Below are positions 6,610 through 35,277 of a stretch of DNA of 64,000 bases, in pieces. The notes under the pieces were generated by a model that did no database searches, was not told the origin of the DNA, and saw only the letters and a program-made list of their open reading frames with translations. Both the position numbers and the translations under genes were made by a program. Origin of the DNA: Pseudohaliea rubra DSM 19751 (lineage in GTDB: Bacteria; Pseudomonadota; Gammaproteobacteria; Pseudomonadales; Halieaceae). The first letter of the stretch is position 1, and every line of letters begins with the position of its first letter. Location: the NCBI RefSeq assembly GCF_000764025.1, contig NZ_KN234746.1, forward strand, positions 1 to 64,000, given 5' to 3'.

Positions 6610-7404
6610 TCAGTGGCCGGACCAGTTGGCCTGGCGCTTCTCCAGAAAGGCCATCACGCCCTCCTTCGCATCAGCACTGTCGACACAGCTGTGCTGCAGC
6701 GACGCCTCGTGAGCGATCACCGTAGCCAGGTCCTGCTCCATGGCGAAGGCGAGGGATTTCTTGATGTACTCCAGAGCCAGCGGCGCCTTGCCGGCAAGCG
6801 CCTGAGCCCAGGCCACGGCGCTGTCCACGAGCACGTCATCGGCCACTACCCGATTGGTCAGGCCGAGTTCCATGCAGCGCGCCGCGGGCACCTTTTCTCC
6901 CGAGGTCATCAGGTCAAAAGCGCGCAGCGGCCCGAGGGTCCGCGCCAGGTGCCAGGTGGCGCCGCCGTCGGGCACAAGGCCGATGGCCACGAAGGCCTGG
7001 TAGAGGTAGGCGCTCTCGCCCATGATCGAGAGATCACAGGCCATGGCGAAGGCACTGCCGATGCCCGCCGCGGCGCCATTCACAGCGGCAATCCACGGCT
7101 TGCGGGACTGGGTAATCGCCAGTACCGCCGGTTTGTACTCATCGTTGAGCATGGCCTCGGTGGCATGGCCGCCGCCGTCATCCGGCGACAAACCCTCAGA
7201 CAGGTCTGCGCCTGCGCAAAAAGCGCGGCCAGCACCGGTGAGCACCGCAACGCGGATCGCCGGGTCGGCATTCACCGCCTGCACCGCTGCGAGGAACTCC
7301 CGTCGCAACTCGCCGTTGAAACTGTTGAGACTGTCCGGACGGTCCAGCGTGACAACCGCCACGGGACCGTCACGGTCGATGCGAACGGTGTTGAAATCAT
7401 TCAT
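6610..7404 (-). CDS. Enoyl-CoA hydratase/isomerase family protein
   Basis: A 264-residue crotonase-fold enzyme. The oxyanion hole elements are FCAGADL and NGAAAGIGSAFAMACD. The active-site loop reads IGLVPDGGATW, with Asp instead of the second hydratase glutamate. This pattern resembles PaaG-type isomerases/hydratases rather than a classical two-Glu hydratase, so double-bond isomerase activity is possible. It sits between a CoA-transferase/racemase gene and the carboxyltransferase gene on the same strand, with short gaps, which suggests a role in the same acyl-CoA degradation route. Confidence 0.88.
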   Translation of the reverse strand: MNDFNTVRIDRDGPVAVVTLDRPDSLNSFNGELRREFLAAVQAVNADPAIRVAVLTGAGRAFCAGADLSEGLSPDDGGGHATEAMLNDEYKPAVLAITQSRKPWIAAVNGAAAGIGSAFAMACDLSIMGESAYLYQAFVAIGLVPDGGATWHLARTLGPLRAFDLMTSGEKVPAARCMELGLTNRVVADDVLVDSAVAWAQALAGKAPLALEYIKKSLAFAMEQDLATVIAHEASLQHSCVDSADAKEGVMAFLEKRQANWSGH

Positions 7405-7423
7405 GGCGGTTCCCCCGGGCCGG

Positions 7424-8557
7424 TCAGGCGACGCTGCCGCCGGCCTTCAACTGCTGGATTTCCTGCTCGGCAAAGCCCATGGCGGTAAGAATACTGTCCG
7501 TATCCTCGCCGGCCCCACGGACGCCGTGGCGCACCGTCGATGGCGTGCGCGCAAAGCGCGGCGCCGGCGCCGGCTGTACGACGCCCTCGACGTCGATATA
7601 GGTCTCCCGGGCTACATTGGCCGGGTGCTCAGGGGCCTCGGTGAAGCGCAGCACCGGCGCAAAGCAGACATCCGTACCCTCCATGAGAGCGCACCACTCG
7701 TCGCGGGTCTTCGCGCGAAACACCGCGGCGAGCTTTTCGCGCAGCGCAGGCCACCTGGCCTGGTTGTTCTGGTCACCGAACTCCTCGGGGGAAAGGCCCG
7801 CCTTTTCCAGCAGCAGAGCATAGAACTGCGGCTCGATGGAGCCGATGGCCACATATTCACCGTCGGAACACTCATAGGTGCCGTAAAAATGCGCGCCGCC
7901 GTCGAGGAGGTTGGCTTCCCGCGCATCGGCATTCCAGGCGCCCATGGCCTGGAAGCTGTGGAACATCCACATGAGCTGCGCGGCGCCATCGACCATGGCC
8001 ACGTCAATAGCCTGCCCCTGCCCCGAATTGCTGGCCTCCAGCAGCGCGGCCAGCACGCCCTGCACCAGCAGCATGCCGCCGCCGCCCATGTCGCCGATGA
8101 GGTTCAGGGGCGGTGTGGGCCGCCCCTCCCCCGGGCCCACCGCATAGAGGGCGCCAGTGAGAGAGATATAGTTAATGTCGTGGCCGGCAGCGCGCGCCAG
8201 CGGGCCCTCCTGGCCCCAGCCGGTCATGCGCGCGAAGACAAGCTTGGGGTTACGCGCCAGGCAGACCTCGGGTCCGATCCCCAGCTTCTCGCAGACCCCT
8301 GGGCGGAAAGGATCGATGAGCACATCGGCGTTCTCCACCATGCGCAGCAGCGTCTCCACGCCCGCGGAATCCTTGAGATTGATAACGATAGACTTCTTGC
8401 CGCGGCCGCTAACGCGCTCTGTGAGCTTCGGATCCGCGCCGCCGGCGCGGTCGACCCGGATCACCTCCGCGCCCATGTCGGCGAGCAACATACCGCCCAT
8501 GGGCGCCGGACCGATGCCGGCGAGCTCGATGACCGTATAGCCGTTGAGGGGCCCCAT
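7424..8557 (-). CDS. CaiB/BaiF family, alpha-methylacyl-CoA racemase-like
   Basis: A 377-residue class III CoA-transferase fold protein. GHDINYISLTGAL and the following GDMGGGGML correspond to the His and Asp catalytic pair of alpha-methylacyl-CoA racemase (MCR/AMACR). The N-terminal ELAGIGPAP also matches racemases rather than formyl-CoA transferases. The enzyme would interconvert (2R)- and (2S)-methylacyl-CoA so that a stereospecific acyl-CoA dehydrogenase can act. The neighbouring acyl-CoA dehydrogenase, HSD10-like dehydrogenase and crotonase fit degradation of 2-methyl-branched acyl chains. A true CoA transferase remains possible but less likely. Confidence 0.85.
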   Translation of the reverse strand: MGPLNGYTVIELAGIGPAPMGGMLLADMGAEVIRVDRAGGADPKLTERVSGRGKKSIVINLKDSAGVETLLRMVENADVLIDPFRPGVCEKLGIGPEVCLARNPKLVFARMTGWGQEGPLARAAGHDINYISLTGALYAVGPGEGRPTPPLNLIGDMGGGGMLLVQGVLAALLEASNSGQGQAIDVAMVDGAAQLMWMFHSFQAMGAWNADAREANLLDGGAHFYGTYECSDGEYVAIGSIEPQFYALLLEKAGLSPEEFGDQNNQARWPALREKLAAVFRAKTRDEWCALMEGTDVCFAPVLRFTEAPEHPANVARETYIDVEGVVQPAPAPRFARTPSTVRHGVRGAGEDTDSILTAMGFAEQEIQQLKAGGSVA

Positions 8558-8581
8558 GGTGCTCTCCTTACTTGCGCTGCG

Positions 8582-9355
8582 TCATTTGGGCTGCATCCGG
8601 ATACCGCCATCAAGGCGGATACACTCGCCGTTAACGTAGTCGTTCTCGGCGATGAATACGGACAGATGTGCGATTTCTTCCGGCCTGCCGAGGCGGTGCG
8701 GGTAAAGGACGCTCGCTTCCAGGGACTTGTAGGCAGGCTCGGGCAGCGATTCAAAGAGCGGGGTATGGATGAGCCCGGGCACGATCGTGTTCACGCGAAT
8801 GCCATAGGACGCCAGATCGCGGGCCATCGGCAGCGTCATGCCGACCACGCCGCCCTTCGAGGCGCTGTAGGCAAGCTGGCCCACCTGCCCCTCGTAGGCC
8901 GCGATGGACGCGGTGTTGATAATGACCCCCCGGCCGTCGTCGCCGAAAACCGGATCGTTCTTGGCCATCTGCTCGGCCGCGTAGCGGGACACGTTGAAGG
9001 TCCCCACGAGGTTGACATTGATCACACCCATGAACATGTCGAGGGGAAAGACCCCCTTCTTGCCCAGGGTCTTGCAGGCGCTGCCGATGCCCGCGTAATT
9101 GTTGCAGATATGCAGCGCGCCGAACTTCTCCACGACACCGGCCACAGCGGTGCTTACGGAATCCTCATCGGCGACGTTGACCTTCCAGAAGGCTACGGAG
9201 TCGGCGCCGAGGGCCTGGATCATCTCGTCCCCGGCCTGCTCGTTGAGGTCGAAGATGCCTACCTTCACGCCCTTGGCCACATAGGCCTCAACGGTAGCGC
9301 GGCCGAGGCCGGAGGCCCCGCCGGTGACAATGGCGACTTTCCCTGACAGATCCAT
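8582..9355 (-). CDS. HSD10-like 3-hydroxyacyl-CoA dehydrogenase (SDR)
   Basis: A 257-residue SDR that closely follows the 17-beta-HSD10/2-methyl-3-hydroxybutyryl-CoA dehydrogenase pattern: VTGGASGLG (10-18), GVIINTASIAAYEGQVGQLAYSASK with S150, Y163 and K167, MTLPMARDLA, and the C-terminal GECIRLDGGIRM. An Asp after beta-2 (IFDLNE) indicates NAD(H). The usual NNAG is NNYAG here, a one-residue variation in the cofactor loop. In the cluster it would oxidise the 3-hydroxyacyl-CoA made by the crotonase. It lies between the acyl-CoA dehydrogenase and racemase genes, all in one direction. Confidence 0.88.
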   Translation of the reverse strand: MDLSGKVAIVTGGASGLGRATVEAYVAKGVKVGIFDLNEQAGDEMIQALGADSVAFWKVNVADEDSVSTAVAGVVEKFGALHICNNYAGIGSACKTLGKKGVFPLDMFMGVINVNLVGTFNVSRYAAEQMAKNDPVFGDDGRGVIINTASIAAYEGQVGQLAYSASKGGVVGMTLPMARDLASYGIRVNTIVPGLIHTPLFESLPEPAYKSLEASVLYPHRLGRPEEIAHLSVFIAENDYVNGECIRLDGGIRMQPK

Positions 9356-9372
9356 GGTGCTTTCTCCGTGCT

Positions 9373-10548
9373 TCAGAAGTTACGGGTATTGAATGGCGTA
9401 TAGTCGTCTGCCAGGCAGTCGCGACTGATGATGATCTTCATGACCTCCGAGCTGCCGGCGTAGATGGTAGCGATCCGCGCATCGGTATACTGACGGCTGA
9501 TCGCGTATTCGTCCATATAGCCTGCGCCGCCGTGGAGCTGAACCCCGACGTCGGCGGCCTTCACCTGCAGCTCACTGGTGACCAGCTTTGCCTTGGCGGC
9601 GTCCACCGCCGTCAGCTGACCCGCGTTGAAGGCGGCGACGCACTGGTCGACATAACTCTGCGCGATATCCAGCTCCGTGCGAACCTCTGCCAGCTTGAAT
9701 TGGGTGTTCTGAAAGGCCGCCAGGGGCTTGCCGAAAGCCTTGCGCTCGCGCACGTAATCGTAGGTCAGGTCCCAGGACAGCTGGGCCGACGCGAGGTAGC
9801 CGCAGGCGCCGATGAGTCGCTCCTCGGCCAGGCCCTCCATAAGGTAAATAAAGCCCTTGCCGGGCTCGCCGAGCACATTGGCCTTCGGAATCCGCACGTC
9901 ATTGAAGAAAAGCTCAGCCGTGTCCTGGGCCTTCATCCCCATCTTCTTGAGGTTGCGGCCGCGCTCGAACCCCTCCATGCCCCGCTCAACGATGAACAGG
10001 GTCATGTGATGAGGGTTGTTGTCCGGATCCGTCTTGGCGGCGACGATCACCGCGTCGGCGTTGATGCCGTTGGAGATGTAGGTCTTGGAGCCGTTGAGCA
10101 CCCAGTGGTCACCCGCTTCCCGGGCTGTAGAGCGCATACCGGCAAGGTCCGAGCCGGCATCGGGCTCGGTCATGGCGACGGCGAGGATGCACTCTCCGCT
10201 GACGCATTTCGGCAGGAAGCGTTCGCACTGCTCCTCGCTGCCGAAACGCGTGAAATAGGGCCCTACCAGCCGGCTGTGCAGCGTCGAATACCAGTCGCCG
10301 ACGCGGGCGTAGGCCGCTTCCTCGATGATGACCTGCTCGAAGCGAAAGTCCTCATCGCCCATGCCGCCGTATTTTTCCTCCGGCCAGACCATGAGAAAAC
10401 CCTGCTCGCCGGCGCGCCGGAAGGCCTCCCGGTCGACGATGCCCGCCTCACGCCAGCGCTCCATATGTGGCACAATCTCGCTGGTGAGAAACTTGCGATA
10501 AGCATCGCGGAACATGGTTTGTTCTTCGGTGAAGTTGCGTGGCAACAT
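9373..10548 (-). CDS. Acyl-CoA dehydrogenase
   Basis: A 391-residue FAD-dependent acyl-CoA dehydrogenase with the order N-terminal helical domain, beta domain (AMTEPDAGSDLAGMRSTA) and C-terminal helical domain. The C-terminal YAGSSEVMKIIISR contains the expected catalytic glutamate region. The start at 10548 gives MLPRNFTEEQ, the standard family N-terminus, with GGAGA 8 nt upstream. An open frame continues further upstream but encodes no family sequence. It introduces the first double bond and is the promoter-proximal gene of the minus-strand cluster, divergent from an AraC-type regulator. Confidence 0.92.
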   Translation of the reverse strand: MLPRNFTEEQTMFRDAYRKFLTSEIVPHMERWREAGIVDREAFRRAGEQGFLMVWPEEKYGGMGDEDFRFEQVIIEEAAYARVGDWYSTLHSRLVGPYFTRFGSEEQCERFLPKCVSGECILAVAMTEPDAGSDLAGMRSTAREAGDHWVLNGSKTYISNGINADAVIVAAKTDPDNNPHHMTLFIVERGMEGFERGRNLKKMGMKAQDTAELFFNDVRIPKANVLGEPGKGFIYLMEGLAEERLIGACGYLASAQLSWDLTYDYVRERKAFGKPLAAFQNTQFKLAEVRTELDIAQSYVDQCVAAFNAGQLTAVDAAKAKLVTSELQVKAADVGVQLHGGAGYMDEYAISRQYTDARIATIYAGSSEVMKIIISRDCLADDYTPFNTRNF

Positions 10549-24723: not shown

Positions 24724-26278
24724 CAGCTCTAGGCCCGTCATCCGCCCGCGCCCCGCCGCGGAACTCCTCGGCCAGGTGACGCTTGTAGAGCTTGCCGTTG
24801 TCCATGCGCGGCAGCTTGGGATGGAAATGCAGCGCCTTCGGCACCTTGAGATGCGCCAGGCGGTCGCGGAGCCACTCCATGATCTCAATGGCGACCTCAT
24901 CCGTTGCGTCGACCCAGTTCAGGGGCTCGACCACCGCTGTTACTGCCTCCCCGAACTCCTCATCGGACACACCGAAGACAGCCACGTCCGCCACCTTGTC
25001 GTGGGTGATGAGGATGTTCTCGATCTCCTGCGGATAAATGTTTACGCCGCCGGAAATGATCGTAAAGTGCTTGCGATCCGTGAGATAAAGGAAGCCGTCT
25101 TCATCCACGTAGCCCACGTCTCCGGTAGTCGCCCAGCCGCGGTGATCAAAAGCCTCGGCGGTTTTCTCCGGTTCGCCGTGGTACTCGAAGCTGGCCTGCT
25201 CCCCGGAGAAATACACCGTGCCGATCTCGCCGGGTGGCAGTTCTTTACCGTCGTCGTCGACGATATGGATCGCGCCGAGCACCGCCGGGCCCACGGACCC
25301 CCTGTGGGTCAGCCAGGCGGCGGAATCGATGATAGTGATACCGATGGCCTCGCTGGCGGCGTAGTACTCGACGATCACCGGGCCCCACCACTCGATCATC
25401 TTCTCCTTGACCTCGACAGGACAGGGCGCCGCAGCGTGGATAGCAAACTGCATGCTGGAGACGTCGTACTGTTCCCGGGTCTCCTTCGGCAGCTTGAGCA
25501 TGCGGATGAACATGATGGGCACCCACTGGCTGTGCGTGCAGCGGTGCTCCTGGATCAGCGCCAGCGCCGCCTCCGGGTCGAACTTTTCCATCACCACGGT
25601 AGTGCCGCCAAGCGACAGCACCATCATGTTGTAGCGCAGCGGCGCGGCGTGATAAAGCGGCGCCGGCGACAGGTAGACCGTCTCGTCACTGAAGCCGAAG
25701 GCTGCGCCAAGGCTCGGCGCCATCGGATACTCCGCGTAGGGATCATCGGTGGGCGGCGGCAGGAACACGCCCTTGGGCTTGCCCGTGGTGCCCGAGGAAT
25801 AGAGCATATCCACACCGTAGGCCTCGTCGGCGATGCGCTCCGCCGGCTGAAGATCCACCGCTTCCTCCCAGCTCTCGAAGCCGTCAGCGATACCGCCGAC
25901 CATGTAGAAATGGCGTACGGCTCCCGCCCCCGCCAGCATCTCTCCGGCAACCTCGTGCATCTTCGGCGACGTGATGAACAGCTTCGCGCCGCAGTTCTCA
26001 AGGATATAGCGGGTTTCCTCAGCCTTCAGATGGGTGCTCACCGGGGTGTAGATAATCCCTGAGCGCTGGCAGGCGAAGCAGATTTCCAGAAACTGGCGAC
26101 AGTTTTCGAGCATCAGGGCGATATGGTCACCCTTGGCCAGGCCCAGGCTGCGCAGCAGTTGGGCGCCCTGATTGGAGCGCTCGTCGAGTTCGCGGTAGGT
26201 GACGATCTCGCCGCTCCCCCCCATGATGATGGCGGGCTTGTGCGGGAGGGTCTCTGCGGTCACGCTGGGATGGGGCAT
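24710..26278 (-). CDS. Acyl-CoA synthetase (AMP-binding)
   Basis: A 522-residue adenylate-forming CoA ligase. Motifs are [17 protein letters not shown] (A3), [11 protein letters not shown] (A5), [22 protein letters not shown] (A7/A8), [13 protein letters not shown] (hinge) and [11 protein letters not shown] (A10 lysine). Start 26278 ([16 protein letters not shown]) is the family-like N-terminus, with GAGGA 8 nt upstream. An upstream extension of the open frame is not family sequence and would overlap the divergent operon. It is a second, distinct paralogue of the ligase at 14607-16310. The substrate may be a medium-chain, aromatic or branched acid. Confidence 0.9.
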
Positions 26279-26384
26279 ACGGCGTCCTCGTTGCTGTCGT
26301 ATTATCGGCGTTATCATAGGCGTTGCTTGTAGCGTCGTACACAGGCAACAGAAATCGGCGCGACCACCGGACCGGAGCGACACC

Positions 26385-27170
26385 ATGGACCGCCACGCCA
26401 GCCCGGCCGCCCTGCGCGCAGCGATGCGCAGCGGCGCCTTTACCGACAACACCTCAGGCTTCGCCCCGGGTCACGTGCAGTGCAACCTGGTGATCCTGCC
26501 CGATGCCTTTGCCGGCGACTTCCTGCGCTTCTGCCAGGCCAACCCCAAACCCTGCCCGCTGCTGGCGATAAGTCCCTCCCCCGGTGATCCGACGCTGCCC
26601 GCCCTCGGCGACATCGATGTGCGCAACGACCTGCCGCGCTACCGGGTTTTCGAGGACGGTGAAGTGACCACCGAAGCCCTGAGCATCGCCGATCGCTGGC
26701 AAAGCGATTTCGTGGCCTTTGCCCTGGGGTGCTCCTTTTCTTTCGAGGAGGCTCTGCTGGCGGACGGGCTGGAAGTGCGCAATGTCAGCCTTGATTGCAA
26801 TGTCCCCATGTACCGCACCAACATTCCCTGCGCTCCCGCGGGCCCCTTTCGGGGCGAGATGGTGGTCAGCATGCGGCCCTTCCGCGCCGCCGATGCCATC
26901 CGCGCGATCCAGGTCTGCACACGTTTCCCCGCCGTGCACGGGGCACCGGTGCACCTCGGGGACCCGGCGCTTATCGGTATAGACAACCTGGACGCTCCGG
27001 ACTATGGCGATCCGGTACCCGTGGCCGCCGATGAGCTGCCGGTTTTCTGGGCCTGCGGCGTGACCCCGCAGATCGCCCTGGCTCATGCGCGGCCGCCGGT
27101 CGCAATCACCCACAGCCCCGGCTGCATGCTGGTCACGGACCTCAACAACAGCCGGCTCGCCGTACTCTAG
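26385..27170 (+). CDS. DUF1445 (UPF0317/YcsI) protein, D-glutamate cyclase N-terminal-like
   Basis: A 262-residue DUF1445 protein, complete by family length (about 260-270). Conserved blocks are [59 protein letters not shown] and [12 protein letters not shown]...[12 protein letters not shown]. The mammalian D-glutamate cyclase DGLUCY (formerly UPF0317 protein C14orf159) joins this family to a C-terminal DUF4392 domain. Here a DUF4392 protein is encoded three genes downstream. GGAG lies 8 nt before ATG 26385. It heads the pxp operon (14-bp gap to pxpA). Older annotation calls it a putative hydro-lyase. Dehydration of D-Glu to 5-oxo-D-proline would be compatible with that name. Confidence 0.85.
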
Positions 27171-27184
27171 CCAGGAGGCCTCCC

Positions 27185-27928
27185 ATGCTGCTCAATTGTG
27201 ACCTCGGTGAAAGCTACGGCTCCTGGCGCATGGGTATGGACGCCCACGTGATGCCACACATCGATCTGGCCAATATCGCCTGCGGGTTCCACGGTGGCGA
27301 TCCGCTGACCCTGGCGGAGACCCTGGCCCTGGCGCGGGAGCACGGGGTTGCCGTGGGCGCGCACCCGGCCTACCCGGACCTCGTCGGCTTCGGCCGCCGC
27401 TCCATGAACCTCTCCCGGGAGGAACTCATCGCCACGCTGCGTTACCAGATCGCCGCCCTCGAAGGTATGGCCGCCTGCGCCGGCATCGCGCTCGACTATG
27501 TGAAACCCCACGGCGCGCTCTACAACGACATGATGCGTGACGCGACGATACGCGACGTGGTCATGACCGCCCTCGCCGGCTTCCACCGCCCCTTGAAGCT
27601 CATGCTGCTGGCCACCGCTGCGGCCGACGCACACCGGGAGGAAGCGACTCGACACGGTATCGATCTCCTCTTCGAGGCTTTTGCCGATCGCCGCTACGAC
27701 GACAACGGACATCTCCTCTCCCGGTCAGAGTCCGGCGCGGTGCACAATCGCGAACGCATGCTCGAGCAGGTGGAGTCGCTGCTCCAAGACCGGGCCGTGA
27801 CCACGGCCCGAGGTCAAAGGCTGACGCTGGAGGCTGACACGCTTTGCGTCCACGGTGACAACGAGGAGGGAGTACGCGCCATCGAAGCCATCCGTGAACG
27901 CGTCGGCAAGCGCAGGGCCCGCGCCTGA
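27185..27928 (+). CDS. pxpA: 5-oxoprolinase subunit A (LamB/YcsF family)
   Basis: A 247-residue PxpA, the subunit that works with PxpB and PxpC in ATP-dependent hydrolysis of 5-oxoproline to glutamate. The diagnostic LNCDLGESYG N-terminus, ANIACGFHGGDP, GAHPAYPDLVGFGRRSM, VKPHGALYN and LCVHGDNE are all present. AGGAGG lies 6 nt before the ATG. The stop is 1 nt before the ATG of pxpB. It is the second gene of a seven-gene tightly packed operon. Confidence 0.95.
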   Translation: MLLNCDLGESYGSWRMGMDAHVMPHIDLANIACGFHGGDPLTLAETLALAREHGVAVGAHPAYPDLVGFGRRSMNLSREELIATLRYQIAALEGMAACAGIALDYVKPHGALYNDMMRDATIRDVVMTALAGFHRPLKLMLLATAAADAHREEATRHGIDLLFEAFADRRYDDNGHLLSRSESGAVHNRERMLEQVESLLQDRAVTTARGQRLTLEADTLCVHGDNEEGVRAIEAIRERVGKRRARA

Positions 27929-27929
27929 C

Positions 27930-28607
27930 ATGATCATCGAACTTGCAGGAGAGAGCGCCGTCATGGTCTATCTTGGCGAGACCATGGACCCGGCCGTGGC
28001 CGCGCGGGTGCAGGCGCTCGCGGACGCACTCCCGGACGCGCTCGATGAAGCCCTGCTGGACCTCGTGCCCTCCTATGCGTCGCTGCTGGTGGTCTACGAC
28101 CCGTACCTCACCGACCACATGGCTGTCGTGCGTAAGCTGCATCATCTCGGCTACGCCCTCGAACAGGGTCGCGCAGGCGAAGGTCGGCTGGTGGAACTGC
28201 CAGCGTGGTACAGCTGCGAGAGCGGTGCCGACCTCGAGGAACTTGCGCGCCGCGCGGGGCTTGCAATGGCGGAGGTCATCGCCCTGCACAGCGGCACCGA
28301 CTACCGCGTTTACGCCATCGGCTTCGCCCCGGGCTTTGCCTACCTCGGCGAGGTTGACGAACGCATCGCCGCGCCGCGGCTGGCAACACCGCGGCAACGC
28401 GTGCCCCGGGGTGCGATCGCCATCGCCGACCGACAGACCGCCGTTTACCCCGCTGCTTCCCCCGGCGGCTGGAACCTCGTGGGGCGCTGCCCCCGGCGCC
28501 TCTTCGACCCCGCCGCCGACCCGTGCATGCCGGTCGCCGTGGGCGACCGCGTGCGTTTCCGGCCCATCGACCGCGAGGAATACCTCGCCCTCGGAGGAGA
28601 GCCGTGA
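27930..28607 (+). CDS. pxpB: 5-oxoprolinase subunit B (KipI family)
   Basis: A 225-residue PxpB/KipI (carboxyltransferase domain, subdomain C/D). Conserved features are the N-terminal GESAVMVYLGE, LVPSYASLLVVYDP and YRVYAIGFAPGFAYLG. The next blocks are PRLATPRQRVPRGAIAIADRQTAVYP and SPGGWNLVGRCP. ATG 27930 is chosen because it matches the family start and lies 1 nt after the pxpA stop. It pairs with PxpC as the two halves that are fused in many bacterial urea-amidolyase-like proteins. It overlaps pxpC by 4 nt (GTGA). Confidence 0.95.
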   Translation: MIIELAGESAVMVYLGETMDPAVAARVQALADALPDALDEALLDLVPSYASLLVVYDPYLTDHMAVVRKLHHLGYALEQGRAGEGRLVELPAWYSCESGADLEELARRAGLAMAEVIALHSGTDYRVYAIGFAPGFAYLGEVDERIAAPRLATPRQRVPRGAIAIADRQTAVYPAASPGGWNLVGRCPRRLFDPAADPCMPVAVGDRVRFRPIDREEYLALGGEP

Positions 28608-29545
28608 GCGGGCTGCACGTGGAAGACCCGGGCCTCCTCGCCCTGCTTCAGGACGGCGGGCGCCGCGGTCACTATCGCCTGGGCCTTACTGACGGGGGTC
28701 CCCTGGACCGGCAGGCCTTCGACCTGTGCAACCGCCTGCTCGAGAATCCCGCCGGCGCCGCCGCCGTTGAGCTCACCTTCGGCGGTGCCCGCTTCACGGT
28801 CGGGATCGACAGCTATCTCTGCGTCACCGGAGCCCCCATGCCGCTGAGGATCAACGGCGAGGAGCGGTCGACCTGGGAGGTGCACCCGGTGCGCGAAGGC
28901 GACAGCATCGCCCTCGGGCATCCGCCGGCCGGCTGCCGCGCCTACCTTGGCGTCGCCGGTGGCTTCCAGGCCGAGCCCGTCTTCGGCAGTGTCTCCACAG
29001 TGCTCCGCGAGGGGCTCGGTGGCCTCGGCACCGGCAAGCTCGCCCCCGGTGACCTCCTGCCGTGCACGCCCGCACCCGGGCGGCGTCGTCTCTACCTCCC
29101 GGAAGCAGCACAGCCCCGCTACAACAGCCAGGTTACGCTGCGGGTAATCCCGGGCTACCAGCAGCATCACTTCCCCAGGCTCGCCCAGCGGCGCTTCTTC
29201 GGCAGCCGCTACACTGTTACGGACCGGGCCGACCGCATGGGCTACCGCCTTGAGGGCCCGGTGGTGCGGGCCGACATCGAGGGTCTTCTCTCCGAAGGCA
29301 TCTGCCTCGGGGCGATCCAGCTGCCCGCGGACGGACAGCCGATCGTACTTCTTAACGACCGGCAGACCATCGGCGGCTATCCGAAGATCGGCGCCGCCCT
29401 CTCCCTGGACCTCGCCCGGCTGGCTCAGCAGCGGCCCGGTGGCGAGGTCGTATTTACGCCCATCACCCAGCACGCTGCGCACAACGCCCTGCATCTCGCC
29501 CGGGCCTTCGAGGCATCCCGGTCGATCCAGGAGCGCGGGCCGTGA
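28604..29545 (+). CDS. pxpC: 5-oxoprolinase subunit C (KipA family)
   Basis: A 313-residue PxpC/KipA (AHS2-type carboxyltransferase domain). The family pattern is visible: LALLQDGGRRGHYRLGLTDGGPLD, NPAGAAAVELTFGG, CVTGAP, YLGVAGGF, then TVTDRADRMGYRLEGP and GAIQLPADGQPIVLLNDRQTIGGYPKIG. The GTG start at 28604 overlaps the pxpB stop by 4 nt and has GGAGGA 5 nt upstream. With PxpA/B it forms the ATP-dependent 5-oxoprolinase that returns 5-oxoproline to glutamate. Confidence 0.95.
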   Translation: MSGLHVEDPGLLALLQDGGRRGHYRLGLTDGGPLDRQAFDLCNRLLENPAGAAAVELTFGGARFTVGIDSYLCVTGAPMPLRINGEERSTWEVHPVREGDSIALGHPPAGCRAYLGVAGGFQAEPVFGSVSTVLREGLGGLGTGKLAPGDLLPCTPAPGRRRLYLPEAAQPRYNSQVTLRVIPGYQQHHFPRLAQRRFFGSRYTVTDRADRMGYRLEGPVVRADIEGLLSEGICLGAIQLPADGQPIVLLNDRQTIGGYPKIGAALSLDLARLAQQRPGGEVVFTPITQHAAHNALHLARAFEASRSIQERGP

Positions 29546-30393
29546 CCCCAACCGCCTTCGACGATGCCCTCGAGGAGCTCCTGGTCTTCCGCAACCCCCG
29601 CGGAATGCAGAGCCTTCGGGCAGCGCTCTCCCCGGGCTACTACCGCCGCGCCAGCACGCTCCTTGCGGCGGCGCGCCGGGTACTCATAGGCACGGGCTTC
29701 CCCGTGGCCGGCACCTTCGAAACTGATGGTCCCGTCGGTGCCATGGCACTCTACCGCGCCCTGGAGCAGCGCGGCGCCCAGTGCTGGATTGCCTGTGCCG
29801 CGCCGCTGGCGGCCGAGCTCGAACATGAATTCCGCGTCCTGCCGCTGCAGGCGACGGATCGTGATGCCGCCCGGGAGGAAGCGATCCTGCGCCTGGCCCA
29901 GGTCACCCCGGACGCTATCGTATCTATCGAGCGGCCGGGGCTTGCCGCCAACGGCCGCTACTACAACATGCGCGGCGAAGATATCTCAGCGGACTGCGGC
30001 ATCTTCGACAGCTACCTCGAGCTCGCCGGCTGCCCTACCATTGCCATCGGCGACGGTGGCAACGAGATCGGCATGGGCAAGGTGGCCGACGCCGTCGCGA
30101 AGCTTTCTATCACCCCCGCCGCCACCAGCTGCGACGAGCTGCTGGTGGCGGACGTCTCCAACTGGGGCGCCTACGGCCTGCTCGCCTACTTCGACCTGCT
30201 GGAAGCCACCGATCATCTGGGCACCGTGCGGCCCCGGGAGCTGCTGGCCTTCCTCTCCTCCCGGGGTAGCGTCGACGGTGTCACCCGCGAAAACACGCTT
30301 ACGGAAGACGGCATGGACCCCGCCGCCGGCGAAGCAATCATCAGCGAGCTGCGTGCCCTGACAGCCGCGGCGAAACGCGAGGCAGACGCATGA
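29542..30393 (+). CDS. DUF4392 protein, D-glutamate cyclase C-terminal-like
   Basis: A 283-residue DUF4392 protein. Family blocks are RRVLIGTGFPV...ETDGPVGAMALYRAL, SIERPGLAANGRYYNMRGEDIS and TIAIGDGGNEIGMGKV. The last is glycine/acid-rich and probably binds substrate or metal. DUF4392 is the C-terminal domain of D-glutamate cyclase DGLUCY, which converts D-Glu reversibly to 5-oxo-D-proline and water. GTG 29542 overlaps pxpC by 4 nt with GGAG 8 nt upstream, and its own stop overlaps the transaminase ATG (ATGA). Placement directly after PxpABC supports production or consumption of 5-oxoproline. Confidence 0.85.
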   Translation: MTPTAFDDALEELLVFRNPRGMQSLRAALSPGYYRRASTLLAAARRVLIGTGFPVAGTFETDGPVGAMALYRALEQRGAQCWIACAAPLAAELEHEFRVLPLQATDRDAAREEAILRLAQVTPDAIVSIERPGLAANGRYYNMRGEDISADCGIFDSYLELAGCPTIAIGDGGNEIGMGKVADAVAKLSITPAATSCDELLVADVSNWGAYGLLAYFDLLEATDHLGTVRPRELLAFLSSRGSVDGVTRENTLTEDGMDPAAGEAIISELRALTAAAKREADA

Positions 30394-31247
30394 ACACCGT
30401 ATACCTGAATGGCGCCTGGACCCCCATGACCGAGGCGCGGATCTCGCCCATGGATCGGGGCTTCCTCTTCGGCGACGGAATCTACGAGGTGGTGCCCTCC
30501 TACGGGGGACGCCCCGTCGGCCTGGGCCCGCATCTACGCCGGCTCGCTACCGGCCTCGACGCCCTGGAAATCGACCCGGGGCTCACGGAGGGAGACTGGC
30601 GGCAGCTGGTGTCACAGCTGATTGAGCGCAACGGAGCCGGCAATCTGGGCATCTACCTGCATGTAAGCCGTGGCGCCTACGACAAGCGCAACCATGCTTA
30701 CCCCGCCGAGGTACAGGCAACGGTGTTCGCCTATGCCTTCGAGATCCCGGCCGCACCGAGCGGCGACCCGGCACAGGTCCGGGCCTATCGGGTCAGCACG
30801 GCAGAAGACCTGCGCTGGAAACGCTGTCATATCAAGGCTACCGCTCTCCTCGGCAACGTCATGCATATGCGTCAGGGTCAGGCCGCGGGCAATGATGAAA
30901 CCATTCTCTTCAACACCGCTGGCGAGCTCACAGAGGCCGCCGCCTGCAACGTCTTCCTGGTCTCCGGGGGCGCTGTCGCCACGCCGCCCCTGGACCACCA
31001 GAAGCTCCCGGGCATCACCCGGGAGCTGGTGCTGGATATCCTGCGCCGTTACAGCGATGTCACCGTGGAAGAACGCGTAGTGCACCGGGAGGAGCTGGCC
31101 GAGGCCGACGAAGTGTGGCTGACGAGCTCCAGCAAGGAGATCGCCCCGGTCACGGCCATCGACGGGCACCCGGTCGGAGATGGCCGGGTAGGCCCGGTCT
31201 GGGCGTCGGCCCAGGCTCTCTTTGCGGCTCACAAGTTCGAATACTGA
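30390..31247 (+). CDS. dat: D-amino-acid transaminase
   Basis: A 285-residue fold-type IV PLP aminotransferase. SPMDRGFLFGDGIYEVV at the start and RWKRCHIKATALLGNV (PLP lysine K149; the RW-x-RC-D/H-IK context is typical of D-Ala transaminase rather than BCAT) support D-amino-acid specificity. TSSSKEIAPVTAIDG near the end is also typical of Dat. The phosphate-site ...EGSSSN... block reads ELTEAAACNVF here, a variation. It would exchange D-Ala and 2-oxoglutarate for pyruvate and D-Glu. It is coupled at both ends, ATGA with DUF4392 and TGATG with alr. Confidence 0.9.
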   Translation: MNTVYLNGAWTPMTEARISPMDRGFLFGDGIYEVVPSYGGRPVGLGPHLRRLATGLDALEIDPGLTEGDWRQLVSQLIERNGAGNLGIYLHVSRGAYDKRNHAYPAEVQATVFAYAFEIPAAPSGDPAQVRAYRVSTAEDLRWKRCHIKATALLGNVMHMRQGQAAGNDETILFNTAGELTEAAACNVFLVSGGAVATPPLDHQKLPGITRELVLDILRRYSDVTVEERVVHREELAEADEVWLTSSSKEIAPVTAIDGHPVGDGRVGPVWASAQALFAAHKFEY

Positions 31248-32320
31248 TGCGCCCGACGCGAGCCCGCATCGAGCTGGCGCGGCTGAGGGCCAATGCGGCT
31301 CTGGCGGCGGAAAAGGCGCCGGACTCCCGGCTCATGGCGGTGCTCAAGGCCGACGGCTACGGCCATGGTGCTGTCGCCGTAGCGCAGGCGCTCGCGGCGA
31401 CAGCGGACGCTTTCGCTGTCGCCACCCTCGACGAGGCCGTCACCCTTCGCGAGGCGGGCATCCGTCAGCCGGTGCTGCTCCTCGAGGGCCCCTTCGAGCC
31501 CTCGGAGCTGGAGGAAATCCAGGCACGGGAGCTGACCGTGACGATCACCGGACCGGAGCAGCTTGCCTGGGTCGAGGCGGCGCGCCTCCGGGGACCGGTG
31601 GCCTGCTGGCTCAAGCTGGACACCGGCATGCATCGCCTTGGCCTGGACCCGGCGCGGGCCCGGGAAGCCTGGGAGCGCCTGGACGCCTCGGCTAACGCGG
31701 ACCTCCAGGCCGCCTGCACCCACTTTGCCCGCGCCGAAGAGCTCGACCGGCCCGAGACGGGCAGGCAGCTCGAACGCTTCCTCGCTGCCACCCGGGACTT
31801 GCCCCTGGCGCTCAGCGCGGCCAACTCTCCGGCGGTACTTGCCCGCCCCGAAACCCACCTTGACTGGATCCGCCCGGGCTATCTTCTTTATGGCGACACG
31901 CCCCTGCCGCGAGAGCATCCCGCGGGAGCAGGCCTCGCGGCGGTAATGCAATTCGAGTCCGCGGTGATTGCCGTGCGCGAGATTCCCGCCGGCGACGCGG
32001 TGGGTTATGGCGGCAGCTGGGTGGCCGAGCGCCCCTCGCGCATCGCCACCATCGCCGCGGGCTATGGCGATGGTTACCCGCGCACCACGGCGAACGGCAC
32101 GCCGGTGCTGGTGAAGGGTCGGCGGGCGCCGCTCGCCGGGCGGGTCTCCATGGACATGCTCACCGTCGATGTCACAGACCTGCCGCCAGTGCAGGTGGGC
32201 GACCCGGTCCGGCTCTGGGGCGACGATCTGCCCGTTGGCGAGGTCGCCCGGGGCTCGGGAACCACGGGCTACGAGCTGCTCGCGGGGATGCCCGCGAGGA
32301 CGCCACGCGTTTACACCTGA
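31247..32320 (+). CDS. alr: Alanine racemase
   Basis: A 357-residue fold-type III PLP racemase. The PLP lysine is K34 in AVLKADGYGHGA, KLDTGMHRLGL lines the barrel, and the partner tyrosine lies in IAAGYGDGYPR. C-terminal RVSMDMLTVDVTD and GDPVRLWGD complete the family pattern. ATG 31247 shares one base with the transaminase stop. It makes D-Ala, the amino donor for the upstream transaminase. Together they could produce D-Glu without a glutamate racemase. It could also serve peptidoglycan supply generally. Confidence 0.95.
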   Translation: MRPTRARIELARLRANAALAAEKAPDSRLMAVLKADGYGHGAVAVAQALAATADAFAVATLDEAVTLREAGIRQPVLLLEGPFEPSELEEIQARELTVTITGPEQLAWVEAARLRGPVACWLKLDTGMHRLGLDPARAREAWERLDASANADLQAACTHFARAEELDRPETGRQLERFLAATRDLPLALSAANSPAVLARPETHLDWIRPGYLLYGDTPLPREHPAGAGLAAVMQFESAVIAVREIPAGDAVGYGGSWVAERPSRIATIAAGYGDGYPRTTANGTPVLVKGRRAPLAGRVSMDMLTVDVTDLPPVQVGDPVRLWGDDLPVGEVARGSGTTGYELLAGMPARTPRVYT

Positions 32321-33978: not shown

Positions 33979-35277
33979 CTACTCCGCGCCGCGGTAGACC
34001 TCGCCACCTTTCATGACGAAGGCGACGTTCTCGAGCACGGTGATATCCGCCAGCGGATCGCCGGCCACGGCAACAAGGTCGGCATAGCGCCCGGGGGCGA
34101 TACTGCCGAGCTCGTCGCTCACCCGGAGCAGCTCGGCTGCGTTCACCGTCGCCGCCTTGATGGCCTCCATGGGCGGCATGCCGGCCTCGACCATGTAACG
34201 GAACTCCAGGCCATTGGCGCCGTGCGGCGAGACACCCGCGTCGGTGCCGAAGGCAATCTTCACGCCCGCCTCCCATGCCCTGGCGAAGGTGTCCTGGATC
34301 TGCGGCCCGATGGCCGCGGCCTTCGGGCGAACAACCGACGGCAGCTTGTCGTCCTGCTCGGCGAGCTCTGCTACCCACTTGCCGGCGGAGATTGTCGGCA
34401 CATACCAGGTACCGTTGCGCTTCATGAGCTCTCGCGCTTCGTCGTCCATGTAGGTGCCGTGCTCGACGGAATCCACACCGGCCCGGATAGCGCGCTTCAT
34501 GCCCTCGGCGCCGTGGGCATGCACCGCGACGACGAAGTTGTAGTCCTTCGCCGTGGCGACGATGGCCTCAATCTCATCAGCCATGAACTGGGGGTTATCG
34601 CCGCTTTTGGCGAGGGAGAGCACGCCACCGGTGACCGTGAGCTTGATGACGTCGGAGCCATCCTTGTAGCGCTGGCGCACAGCCTTGCGTGCGTCCTCGG
34701 GACTGTTTATCACGCCCTCTTTCGGGCCCGGATCGCCGCGCAGGTCGTAGCGGATGCCGTTGGTCGGGTCCGCGTGGCCACCGGTGGTGCCAATGGCCTT
34801 GCCGGCTGCGAAAATCCGCGGGCCTGCCACATAGCCTTTATTGATGGCATCGCGCAGGCCGAGGAGCGCAGGTACATCGCCGGTGCCGAGGTCACGGACC
34901 GTGGTGAAGCCCGCGTCCAGCGTCCGCCGGGCATAGATAGTCGCGCGCAGGGCGATGTCAGCGGAGTTCATGTAGTAGTTTTCAGCGTAGCTCGCCGGCG
35001 GATCGAGCTCGCCATCGAGATGCACGTGAGTATCCACGAAGCCCGGCAGCACCGTGTGACCGGACAGGTCGATGACTCTGGCACCCGCCGGCGCCAGGAA
35101 ATCCTCCTCCACCGCGGTAATGCGGTCACCCTCGATGAAAATCGAGACGTTGTCGCGGACGCGCTCGGCGCTGACGTCGACAAGGCGGCCAGCATGAACC
35201 ACCGTATCGGGCGCGGCGTGAACGCCGGCGGCACCGAGGATGAGGAAATAAAAAACAGAGAAAAGACGACGAAGCAC
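33979..35277 (-). CDS. Exported amidohydrolase (Xaa-Pro dipeptidase/imidazolonepropionase-like)
   Basis: A 432-residue amidohydrolase with a signal peptide ([21 protein letters not shown]). Metal ligands are in [12 protein letters not shown], the carboxylated lysine region [43 protein letters not shown] and [13 protein letters not shown]. The exported members of this subgroup hydrolyse Xaa-Pro or Xaa-Arg dipeptides or lactones. Substrate is not decidable from sequence. It is convergent with ppx (12 bp apart) and followed upstream, on the same strand, by gspB/gspA after a 30-bp gap. Confidence 0.87.

Follow-up and report, generated by a model that had tools for sequence, protein, structure and literature searches.

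Opening of the lactam ring of 5-oxoproline leaves the alpha-carbon untouched, so that a D configuration is kept, and the known bacterial 5-oxoprolinase PxpABC acts on the L form of this compound. In mammals, the D-glutamate cyclase DGLUCY, a fusion of the DUF1445 and DUF4392 domains, converts D-glutamate (D-Glu) to 5-oxo-D-proline and, according to the accessible part of its description, has no glutamate racemase activity and yields no L-glutamate (L-Glu) (PMC5339696). Split homologues of human GLUCM appear in 6 cases in a table of a gut-microbe study (PMC12547972, in the portion available). As for the D-Glu of peptidoglycan, the available text of PMC8788868 presents D-amino-acid aminotransferases as a general source and MurD2/MurL as a further route. 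Here, we describe a locus of Pseudohaliea rubra DSM 19751 (Halieaceae) in which the two halves of a putative D-glutamate cyclase are encoded together with PxpABC, a D-amino-acid transaminase (Dat) and an alanine racemase (Alr). In the window, i.e., the whole stretch of 64,000 nucleotides analysed (contig NZ_KN234746.1, positions 1 to 64,000), the seven genes lie at 26385-32320, all on the plus strand, in the order DUF1445-pxpA-pxpB-pxpC-DUF4392-dat-alr.

We propose, at a probability of roughly 0.55, that this locus is a two-part operon, in which dat-alr would supply the D-alanine (D-Ala) and D-Glu of peptidoglycan and DUF1445-PxpABC-DUF4392 would form an accessory branch that lowers the D-Glu pool. 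In the proposed mechanism, Alr would convert L-Ala to D-Ala and Dat would transfer the amino group of D-Ala onto 2-oxoglutarate to give D-Glu, the pair standing in for the glutamate racemase MurI, which is missing from the host genome. Surplus D-Glu would be cyclised to 5-oxo-D-proline by the split cyclase, and PxpABC would act on 5-oxoproline with consumption of ATP; the fate of 5-oxo-D-proline within this scheme is one that we infer.

The seven genes form an operon-like unit and are presumably co-transcribed. DUF1445 and pxpA are separated by 14 nt and pxpA and pxpB by 1 nt; pxpB/pxpC (GTGA), pxpC/DUF4392 (GTGA) and DUF4392/dat (ATGA) overlap by 4 nt, and dat/alr (TGATG) by 1 nt. The first-pass annotation of this DNA had described seven same-strand genes with tight junctions from pxpA/pxpB onward, and had assigned each to a family. 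Positions and junctions agree with the open reading frame coordinates, and the family assignments hold in a Pfam scan, in which 7/7 operon products score above their cut-offs. An NCBIfam model exceeds its cut-off for five of the seven (DUF1445, PxpA, PxpB, PxpC via the TIGR00724 domain, and Alr).

The first line of evidence concerns the origin of D-Glu and D-Ala. The MurI model (TIGR00067) finds no match in the host genome (3.21 Mb, 86 contigs, 98.81% complete); in a control set, it exceeds its cut-off in 8 of 14 genomes. The operon alr (31247-32320, plus strand; TIGR00492, 342.5 bits against a cut-off of 168; Pfam PF01168 and PF00842) is the single TIGR00492 match in that genome, and one MurD match lies above cut-off (394 bits), among other Mur ligase matches on contig C14. 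Because there is no MurI match, a single alr and a single MurD above cut-off, dat-alr is the only source of D-Glu and D-Ala recognisable in the host genome at the level of sequence.

Relatives were sampled as 78 genomes, of which 49 (counting the host) belong to the family and 29 to the rest of the order. Within the family, MurI exceeds its cut-off in one genome (G001), five further genomes having weak partial matches below it, and exactly one alr is above cut-off in 48/49, with two in G019. Among the 29 other genomes of the order, MurI is above cut-off in 22; the seven that lack it all have a Dat-like match of at least 160 bits (a line of our own choosing), while three have both, 19 have MurI only and none has neither. 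The Halieaceae thus seemingly build their cell wall mostly without a glutamate racemase. The MurI gene of G001, a relative of the same genus, lies at 6795-7640 of locus L197, at the edge of synteny and next to sequence that is 84-88% identical to the host genome. Contamination was considered as its origin and set aside given the identity of this adjoining sequence, and the gene is taken as a real gain or retention.

The Dat protein (30390-31247, plus strand; PF01063 Aminotran_4, 173.2 bits against 28.5) is predicted to be specific for D-amino acids and belongs to a subfamily that travels with DUF4392. The two NCBIfam Dat models, NF005209 and TIGR01121, are the top two of 23 models for it, and its closest solved structures are D-amino-acid aminotransferases. 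Residues Y32, R100, H102 and K149 are unchanged in 18/18 aligned rows, K149 being presumably the lysine that binds pyridoxal phosphate. Y32, R100 and H102 align to Y31, R98 and H100 of 3daa, so that the canonical carboxylate trap is kept; the accessible part of PMC10003956 describes this triad of the Bacillus enzyme as binding the alpha-carboxylate of D-amino acids. The in vivo direction of Dat would presumably be towards D-Glu. The host genome holds four more class IV transaminase matches, two of them listed at 26-28% identity. Operon-type Dat (at least 286 bits) is found in 48/49 family genomes; in the sole exception, G005, the contig begins inside alr, so dat would sit just beyond the contig end.

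Conservation of the gene string provides the second line of evidence. DUF4392 occurs in 45/49 family genomes, in 3/29 others of the order and in 2/232 genomes of a class sample (host included). All 48 DUF4392-bearing genomes among the 78 relatives carry a strong Dat, and dat and then alr follow DUF4392 in all 45 such genomes of the family. The regions fetched around DUF4392 numbered 44, of which 43 hold an operon-type gene (40 from Halieaceae and three from other families); in 43/43, dat is no more than 5 kb away and is adjoined by alr. Co-occurrence of DUF1445, pxpABC, DUF4392, dat and alr in one string, which the first-pass annotation had suggested looking for, was indeed found: the order DUF4392-dat-alr is present in 40/40 fetched Halieaceae regions with an operon-type DUF4392, and the string DUF1445-pxpABC-DUF4392-dat recurs in other Gammaproteobacteria among the named loci, a set of 80 that is the best 80 of 527 confirmed relatives and overlaps the sampled genomes. 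In 72 of these 80, dat lies within 5 kb downstream of DUF4392; seven of the other eight had room for it. Chance clustering was rejected, as the gene order is near fixed across the family and recurs elsewhere.

In the four remaining family genomes with DUF4392 (G009, G037, G038 and G039), match coordinates give the same DUF4392-dat-alr adjacency, and at locus L041 (G049) 1.2 kb separates DUF4392 from dat. Across the 40 DUF4392 loci compared, one set in which start codons were chosen heuristically, junctions are mostly short. DUF1445 is absent despite room in three fetched regions, and pxpB/pxpC in three. The 44th fetched region (L069, of G003) holds only a distant second DUF4392 copy, 28% identical, at 8576-9532, outside any cluster; no pxp, dat or alr matches were found within the surrounding 18 kb. 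At L058, from a one-contig genome (G033), pxpB, dat and ppx each appear in two pieces within one region, which looks like an assembly error.

A tree of Dat sequences was compared with loci that lack the upstream genes. The tree comprises 115 rows, after removal of 12 loci judged to be duplicates of sampled genomes and of matches with a stop or shorter than about 200 aa; its deepest joins are unsure because of long branches. A single group of 109 (100/97) unites the operon-type Dats, and the Dats of four genomes without DUF4392 (G028, G035, G048 and G058) fall inside it. Those of G035 and G048 group with that of G013, which has the full operon (100/98), while the placement of G028 and G058, which keep an operon-type Dat and alr, is less firm owing to long branches. 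In G035 and G048, the acyl-CoA synthetase gene, dat, alr and ppx are in place, and the five genes between are absent at that spot, a divergent PxpABC being encoded elsewhere in the genome (PxpA 41% and PxpB 33% identical). Retention of dat-alr at loci without the other five genes argues for a supply module with a dispensable branch rather than a cycle; such a pattern would be expected if the upstream branch can be lost but dat-alr cannot. In G058, a phosphoribosyltransferase-like gene (L189, 10147-10725) lies between pxpC and dat, where DUF4392 sits in other loci.

Both domains of D-glutamate cyclase are encoded in the operon, as separate proteins that, by analogy with the mammalian fusion, would cyclise D-Glu in bacteria. 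The DUF1445/UPF0317 gene (26385-27170, plus strand) scores 216.1 bits against a cut-off of 25 for PF07286, 'D-Glu_cyclase', and 384.9 against 324 for NF003969. Its family has solved members (2pif and 3db9), and the predicted model (pLDDT 89.3) finds its best fold matches among DUF1445 members (Z 30.4 and 28.5), followed by the nitrogen-repressor-like (NrpR-like) protein MJ0159 (Z 8.9, rmsd 3.5, 163 aligned) and then a next row at Z 5.3. The likeness to MJ0159 is a possible hint that DUF1445 has a dicarboxylate-binding fold. The DUF4392 gene (29542-30393, plus strand; PF14336 GLUCM-like_C, 221.7 bits against 27.9; no NCBIfam match) encodes a protein that matches relatives of Thermococcus TON_0340 in sequence (E 5e-33), and its model superimposes on TON_0340 with Z 36.3 and rmsd 1.7 over 254 aligned positions. 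RecJ, NrnA and GdpP-type phosphoesterases, commonly named the DHH family, follow at Z 11.7 and below. The acidic metal ligands E60, D62, E130, D171, E175 and D256 are unchanged in 16/16 rows, the 28%-identical second copy included; their positions were taken from the available part of PMC5132392 and placed via alignment to TON_0340 relatives. Plasmid records name DUF4392 'glutamate cyclase domain-containing protein', and a label quoted in the accessible text of PMC5339696 makes it an Asp/Glu/hydantoin racemase; no such fold is among the 50 matches listed, an absence that excludes nothing. Neither predicted fold settles which half is catalytic.

The three subunits of 5-oxoprolinase lie side by side between the two cyclase halves: pxpA (LamB/YcsF; 27185-27928, plus strand) scores 294.7 bits for PF03746 and 332.1 against 213 for NF003816, pxpB (CT_C_D; 27930-28607, plus strand) 230.4 for PF02682 and 169.9 against 145.55 for TIGR00370, and pxpC (CT_A_B; 28604-29545, plus strand) 278.1 for PF02626 and 247.5 against 230.2 for TIGR00724, the latter falling below the PxpC equivalog model NF045499 (200.5 of 500). 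PF02682 has this single match in the host genome. Clusters with pxpA only were found at seven loci (L052, L054, L067, L144, L161, L169 and L175, of which L052 and L175 are one contig). The idea that PxpA works without PxpBC was rejected, since all six genomes concerned (G024, G040, G051, G328, G339 and G346) have a CT_C_D gene elsewhere; that of G024 is 24% identical, so the rejection does not extend to its genus.

The stereochemistry of ring opening bears directly on the role of PxpABC. As the alpha-carbon is unchanged in hydrolysis, action of PxpABC on 5-oxo-D-proline would regenerate D-Glu at the expense of ATP, and formation of L-Glu from 5-oxo-D-proline would need epimerisation at the alpha-carbon. 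To our knowledge, none of the operon genes epimerises this carbon, and we know of no route from 5-oxo-D-proline to L-Glu. No report of a 5-oxoproline racemase or a 5-oxo-D-prolinase was found in the open-licence literature, which is thin on subscription journals, nor did a term search find D forms in the available text of a Corynebacterium glutamicum pxp paper (PMC13274462). The closed route from L-Ala through D-Ala, D-Glu and 5-oxo-D-proline to Glu, put forward in the first-pass annotation, therefore does not follow: hydrolysis of 5-oxo-D-proline would give D-Glu, and no epimerisation step is known. Taken as a whole, that interpretation survives in its families, its operon-like layout and its link between the making of D-Glu and the handling of D-Glu and 5-oxoproline, and loses its closed cycle to Glu. 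The link itself is strengthened by the lack of MurI, the single alr, conservation throughout the family and a Dat clade of its own.

Several observations weigh against the two-part operon. An overflow role gives no reason for an L-form PxpABC to share the operon, and the fold of DUF4392, after TON_0340, is closest to Mn-dependent phosphoesterases, a likeness that gives no indication of a cyclase. Dat falls below both NCBIfam Dat cut-offs (230.4 of 320 for NF005209 and 200.1 of 277.45 for TIGR01121). The dat-alr part alone is not special: in the class sample, where Dat was counted at E ≤1e-35 (our choice, above the scores of other class IV transaminases), Dat without MurI is the most frequent combination (138/232), followed by MurI only (44), both (32) and neither (18), and is thus common in the absence of this operon. 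These genomes weaken the notion that Dat replaced MurI because of the operon. MurI was sought in the genomes of 50 of the 80 named DUF4392 loci, which carry no completeness figure, and is above cut-off in 15 of them; G001, too, has MurI plus DUF4392-dat-alr. Given such carriers, replacing MurI cannot be the operon's only role. Of the 72 named loci with dat, 35 have alr immediately behind it, and some of the others end too early to tell. As for other sources of D-Glu, MurD2/MurL was touched via the MurD count alone, which cannot tell MurD2 from MurD, and DapF-type racemisation, described for Chlamydia in the accessible part of PMC5885031, is another possible source.

The MurI-bearing carriers, together with the 37 of 72 named loci in which alr does not appear immediately behind dat (some cut short), would also fit a catabolic operon that degrades D-amino acids from murein or uptake, Dat gathering amino groups on D-Glu and the cyclase and PxpABC processing it further. 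In Neptunomonas, two Aestuariicella and Amphritea balenae, a LysR regulator separates DUF4392 from dat, as would suit such an inducible pathway. However, Halieaceae that lack MurI must rely on dat-alr for biosynthesis as well, barring a further source of D-Glu; the pair persists at loci from which the other genes are absent, and a transporter or peptidase was not found among the seven genes by the Pfam scan. We regard a catabolic role as rather unlikely.

Alternatively, the operon could encode an ATP-driven one-way converter of D-Glu to L-Glu, in which cyclisation is followed by epimerisation by one of the DUF proteins and an L-specific PxpABC opens the ring. Such a converter would account for the usual co-occurrence of PxpABC with the cyclase halves, would agree with the only PxpB of the host genome and would close the route of the first-pass annotation; if true, it would, with Alr and Dat, give bacteria without MurI control over the D/L-Glu ratio in both directions. 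Yet no epimerase family was seen among the operon products, the folds nearest to the two DUF proteins begin with RecJ/NrnA/GdpP-type enzymes beyond TON_0340 for DUF4392 and with the NrpR-like protein for DUF1445, and mammalian DGLUCY made 5-oxo-D-proline and no L-Glu as far as the accessible report goes (PMC5339696), which leaves this scheme improbable.

The resemblance of the predicted DUF4392 fold to Mn-dependent phosphoesterases, and the fact that TON_0340 hydrolysed phosphate compounds with Mn (PMC5132392, available part), raise the prospect that the DUF proteins do not act on D-Glu, DUF4392 being an Mn-dependent small-molecule phosphatase and DUF1445-PxpABC a 5-oxo-L-proline repair system sharing the operon by chance. 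The presence of pxpABC near dat without DUF4392 in G058 points the same way. We give this little credence: the activity of TON_0340, although detectable, was very low according to the same text, the DGLUCY fusion of both halves has D-Glu cyclase activity (PMC5339696, accessible part), and the DUF4392-dat linkage is near fixed in the named loci (72/80) and fetched regions (43/43). A reversible D-Glu store, with PxpABC hydrolysing 5-oxo-D-proline back to D-Glu, would be consistent with the neighbouring genes and would dispense with an unknown epimerase, but is very improbable, since ATP would be burnt with no net change and the single host PxpB must also serve 5-oxo-L-proline, if this is repaired here.

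Around the operon, the presumed promoter region of 106 bases (26279-26384), assigned by position only, lies between DUF1445 and a divergent acyl-CoA synthetase gene whose start is taken at 26278, and a Ppx/GppA gene follows alr. In two Halieaceae examined, an acyl-CoA thioesterase gene (L039, 4498-5337; L045, 12683-13540) fills the gap between the acyl-CoA synthetase gene and DUF1445, which spans about 100 bases in the window. Further downstream, an amidohydrolase at 33979-35277 on the minus strand scores 435 of 500 bits, below the cut-off for Caulobacter-type Xaa-Pro dipeptidase.

All parts of the operon belong to known families; no report of the whole operon with dat-alr was found in the open-licence literature, which omits most subscription journals, and nothing was found there on Halieaceae with peptidoglycan and D-Glu. 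If the two-part operon is accepted, P. rubra would hold its only recognisable D-Ala and D-Glu genes in one conserved operon, along with genes that probably dispose of surplus D-Glu. This would place the orphan DUF1445 and DUF4392 in a bacterial setting with a clear reason to make and remove D-Glu, would link PxpABC to D-amino-acid metabolism, and would offer a genetic system in which to study the purpose of D-glutamate cyclase and the fate of 5-oxo-D-proline.

Compared with known systems, the locus combines features that are otherwise described apart. The ycsFGI-kipIAR genes of Bacillus subtilis, a PxpABC operon, likewise have DUF1445 beside the pxp genes. Bacterial PxpABC operons, such as pxpTABC of C. 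glutamicum (PMC13274462, available text), share the same three subunits, while P. rubra adds DUF4392, dat and alr and has a PxpC below the equivalog cut-off. The mammalian cyclase (9030617O03Rik/C14orf159) has the same two domains and forms 5-oxo-D-proline from D-Glu in the accessible part of PMC5339696, whereas here the domains of the predicted enzyme are two separate genes with pxpABC between them, strung with dat and alr. TON_0340 shares the fold and all six metal ligands of DUF4392, but was studied alone, with very low Mn-phosphatase activity in the part of PMC5132392 available. The Xanthomonas MurD2/MurL system likewise lives without MurI, but epimerises Glu after its joining to UDP-MurNAc-L-Ala (PMC8788868, available text), and P. 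rubra has one MurD above cut-off. Finally, the Y31/R98/H100 trap of the Bacillus-type Dat/Alr route is common to the Bacillus enzyme and P. rubra Dat; in contrast to that route, the P. rubra Dat is of the DUF4392-associated subfamily, is the sole recognisable source and is strung together with a likely D-Glu sink.

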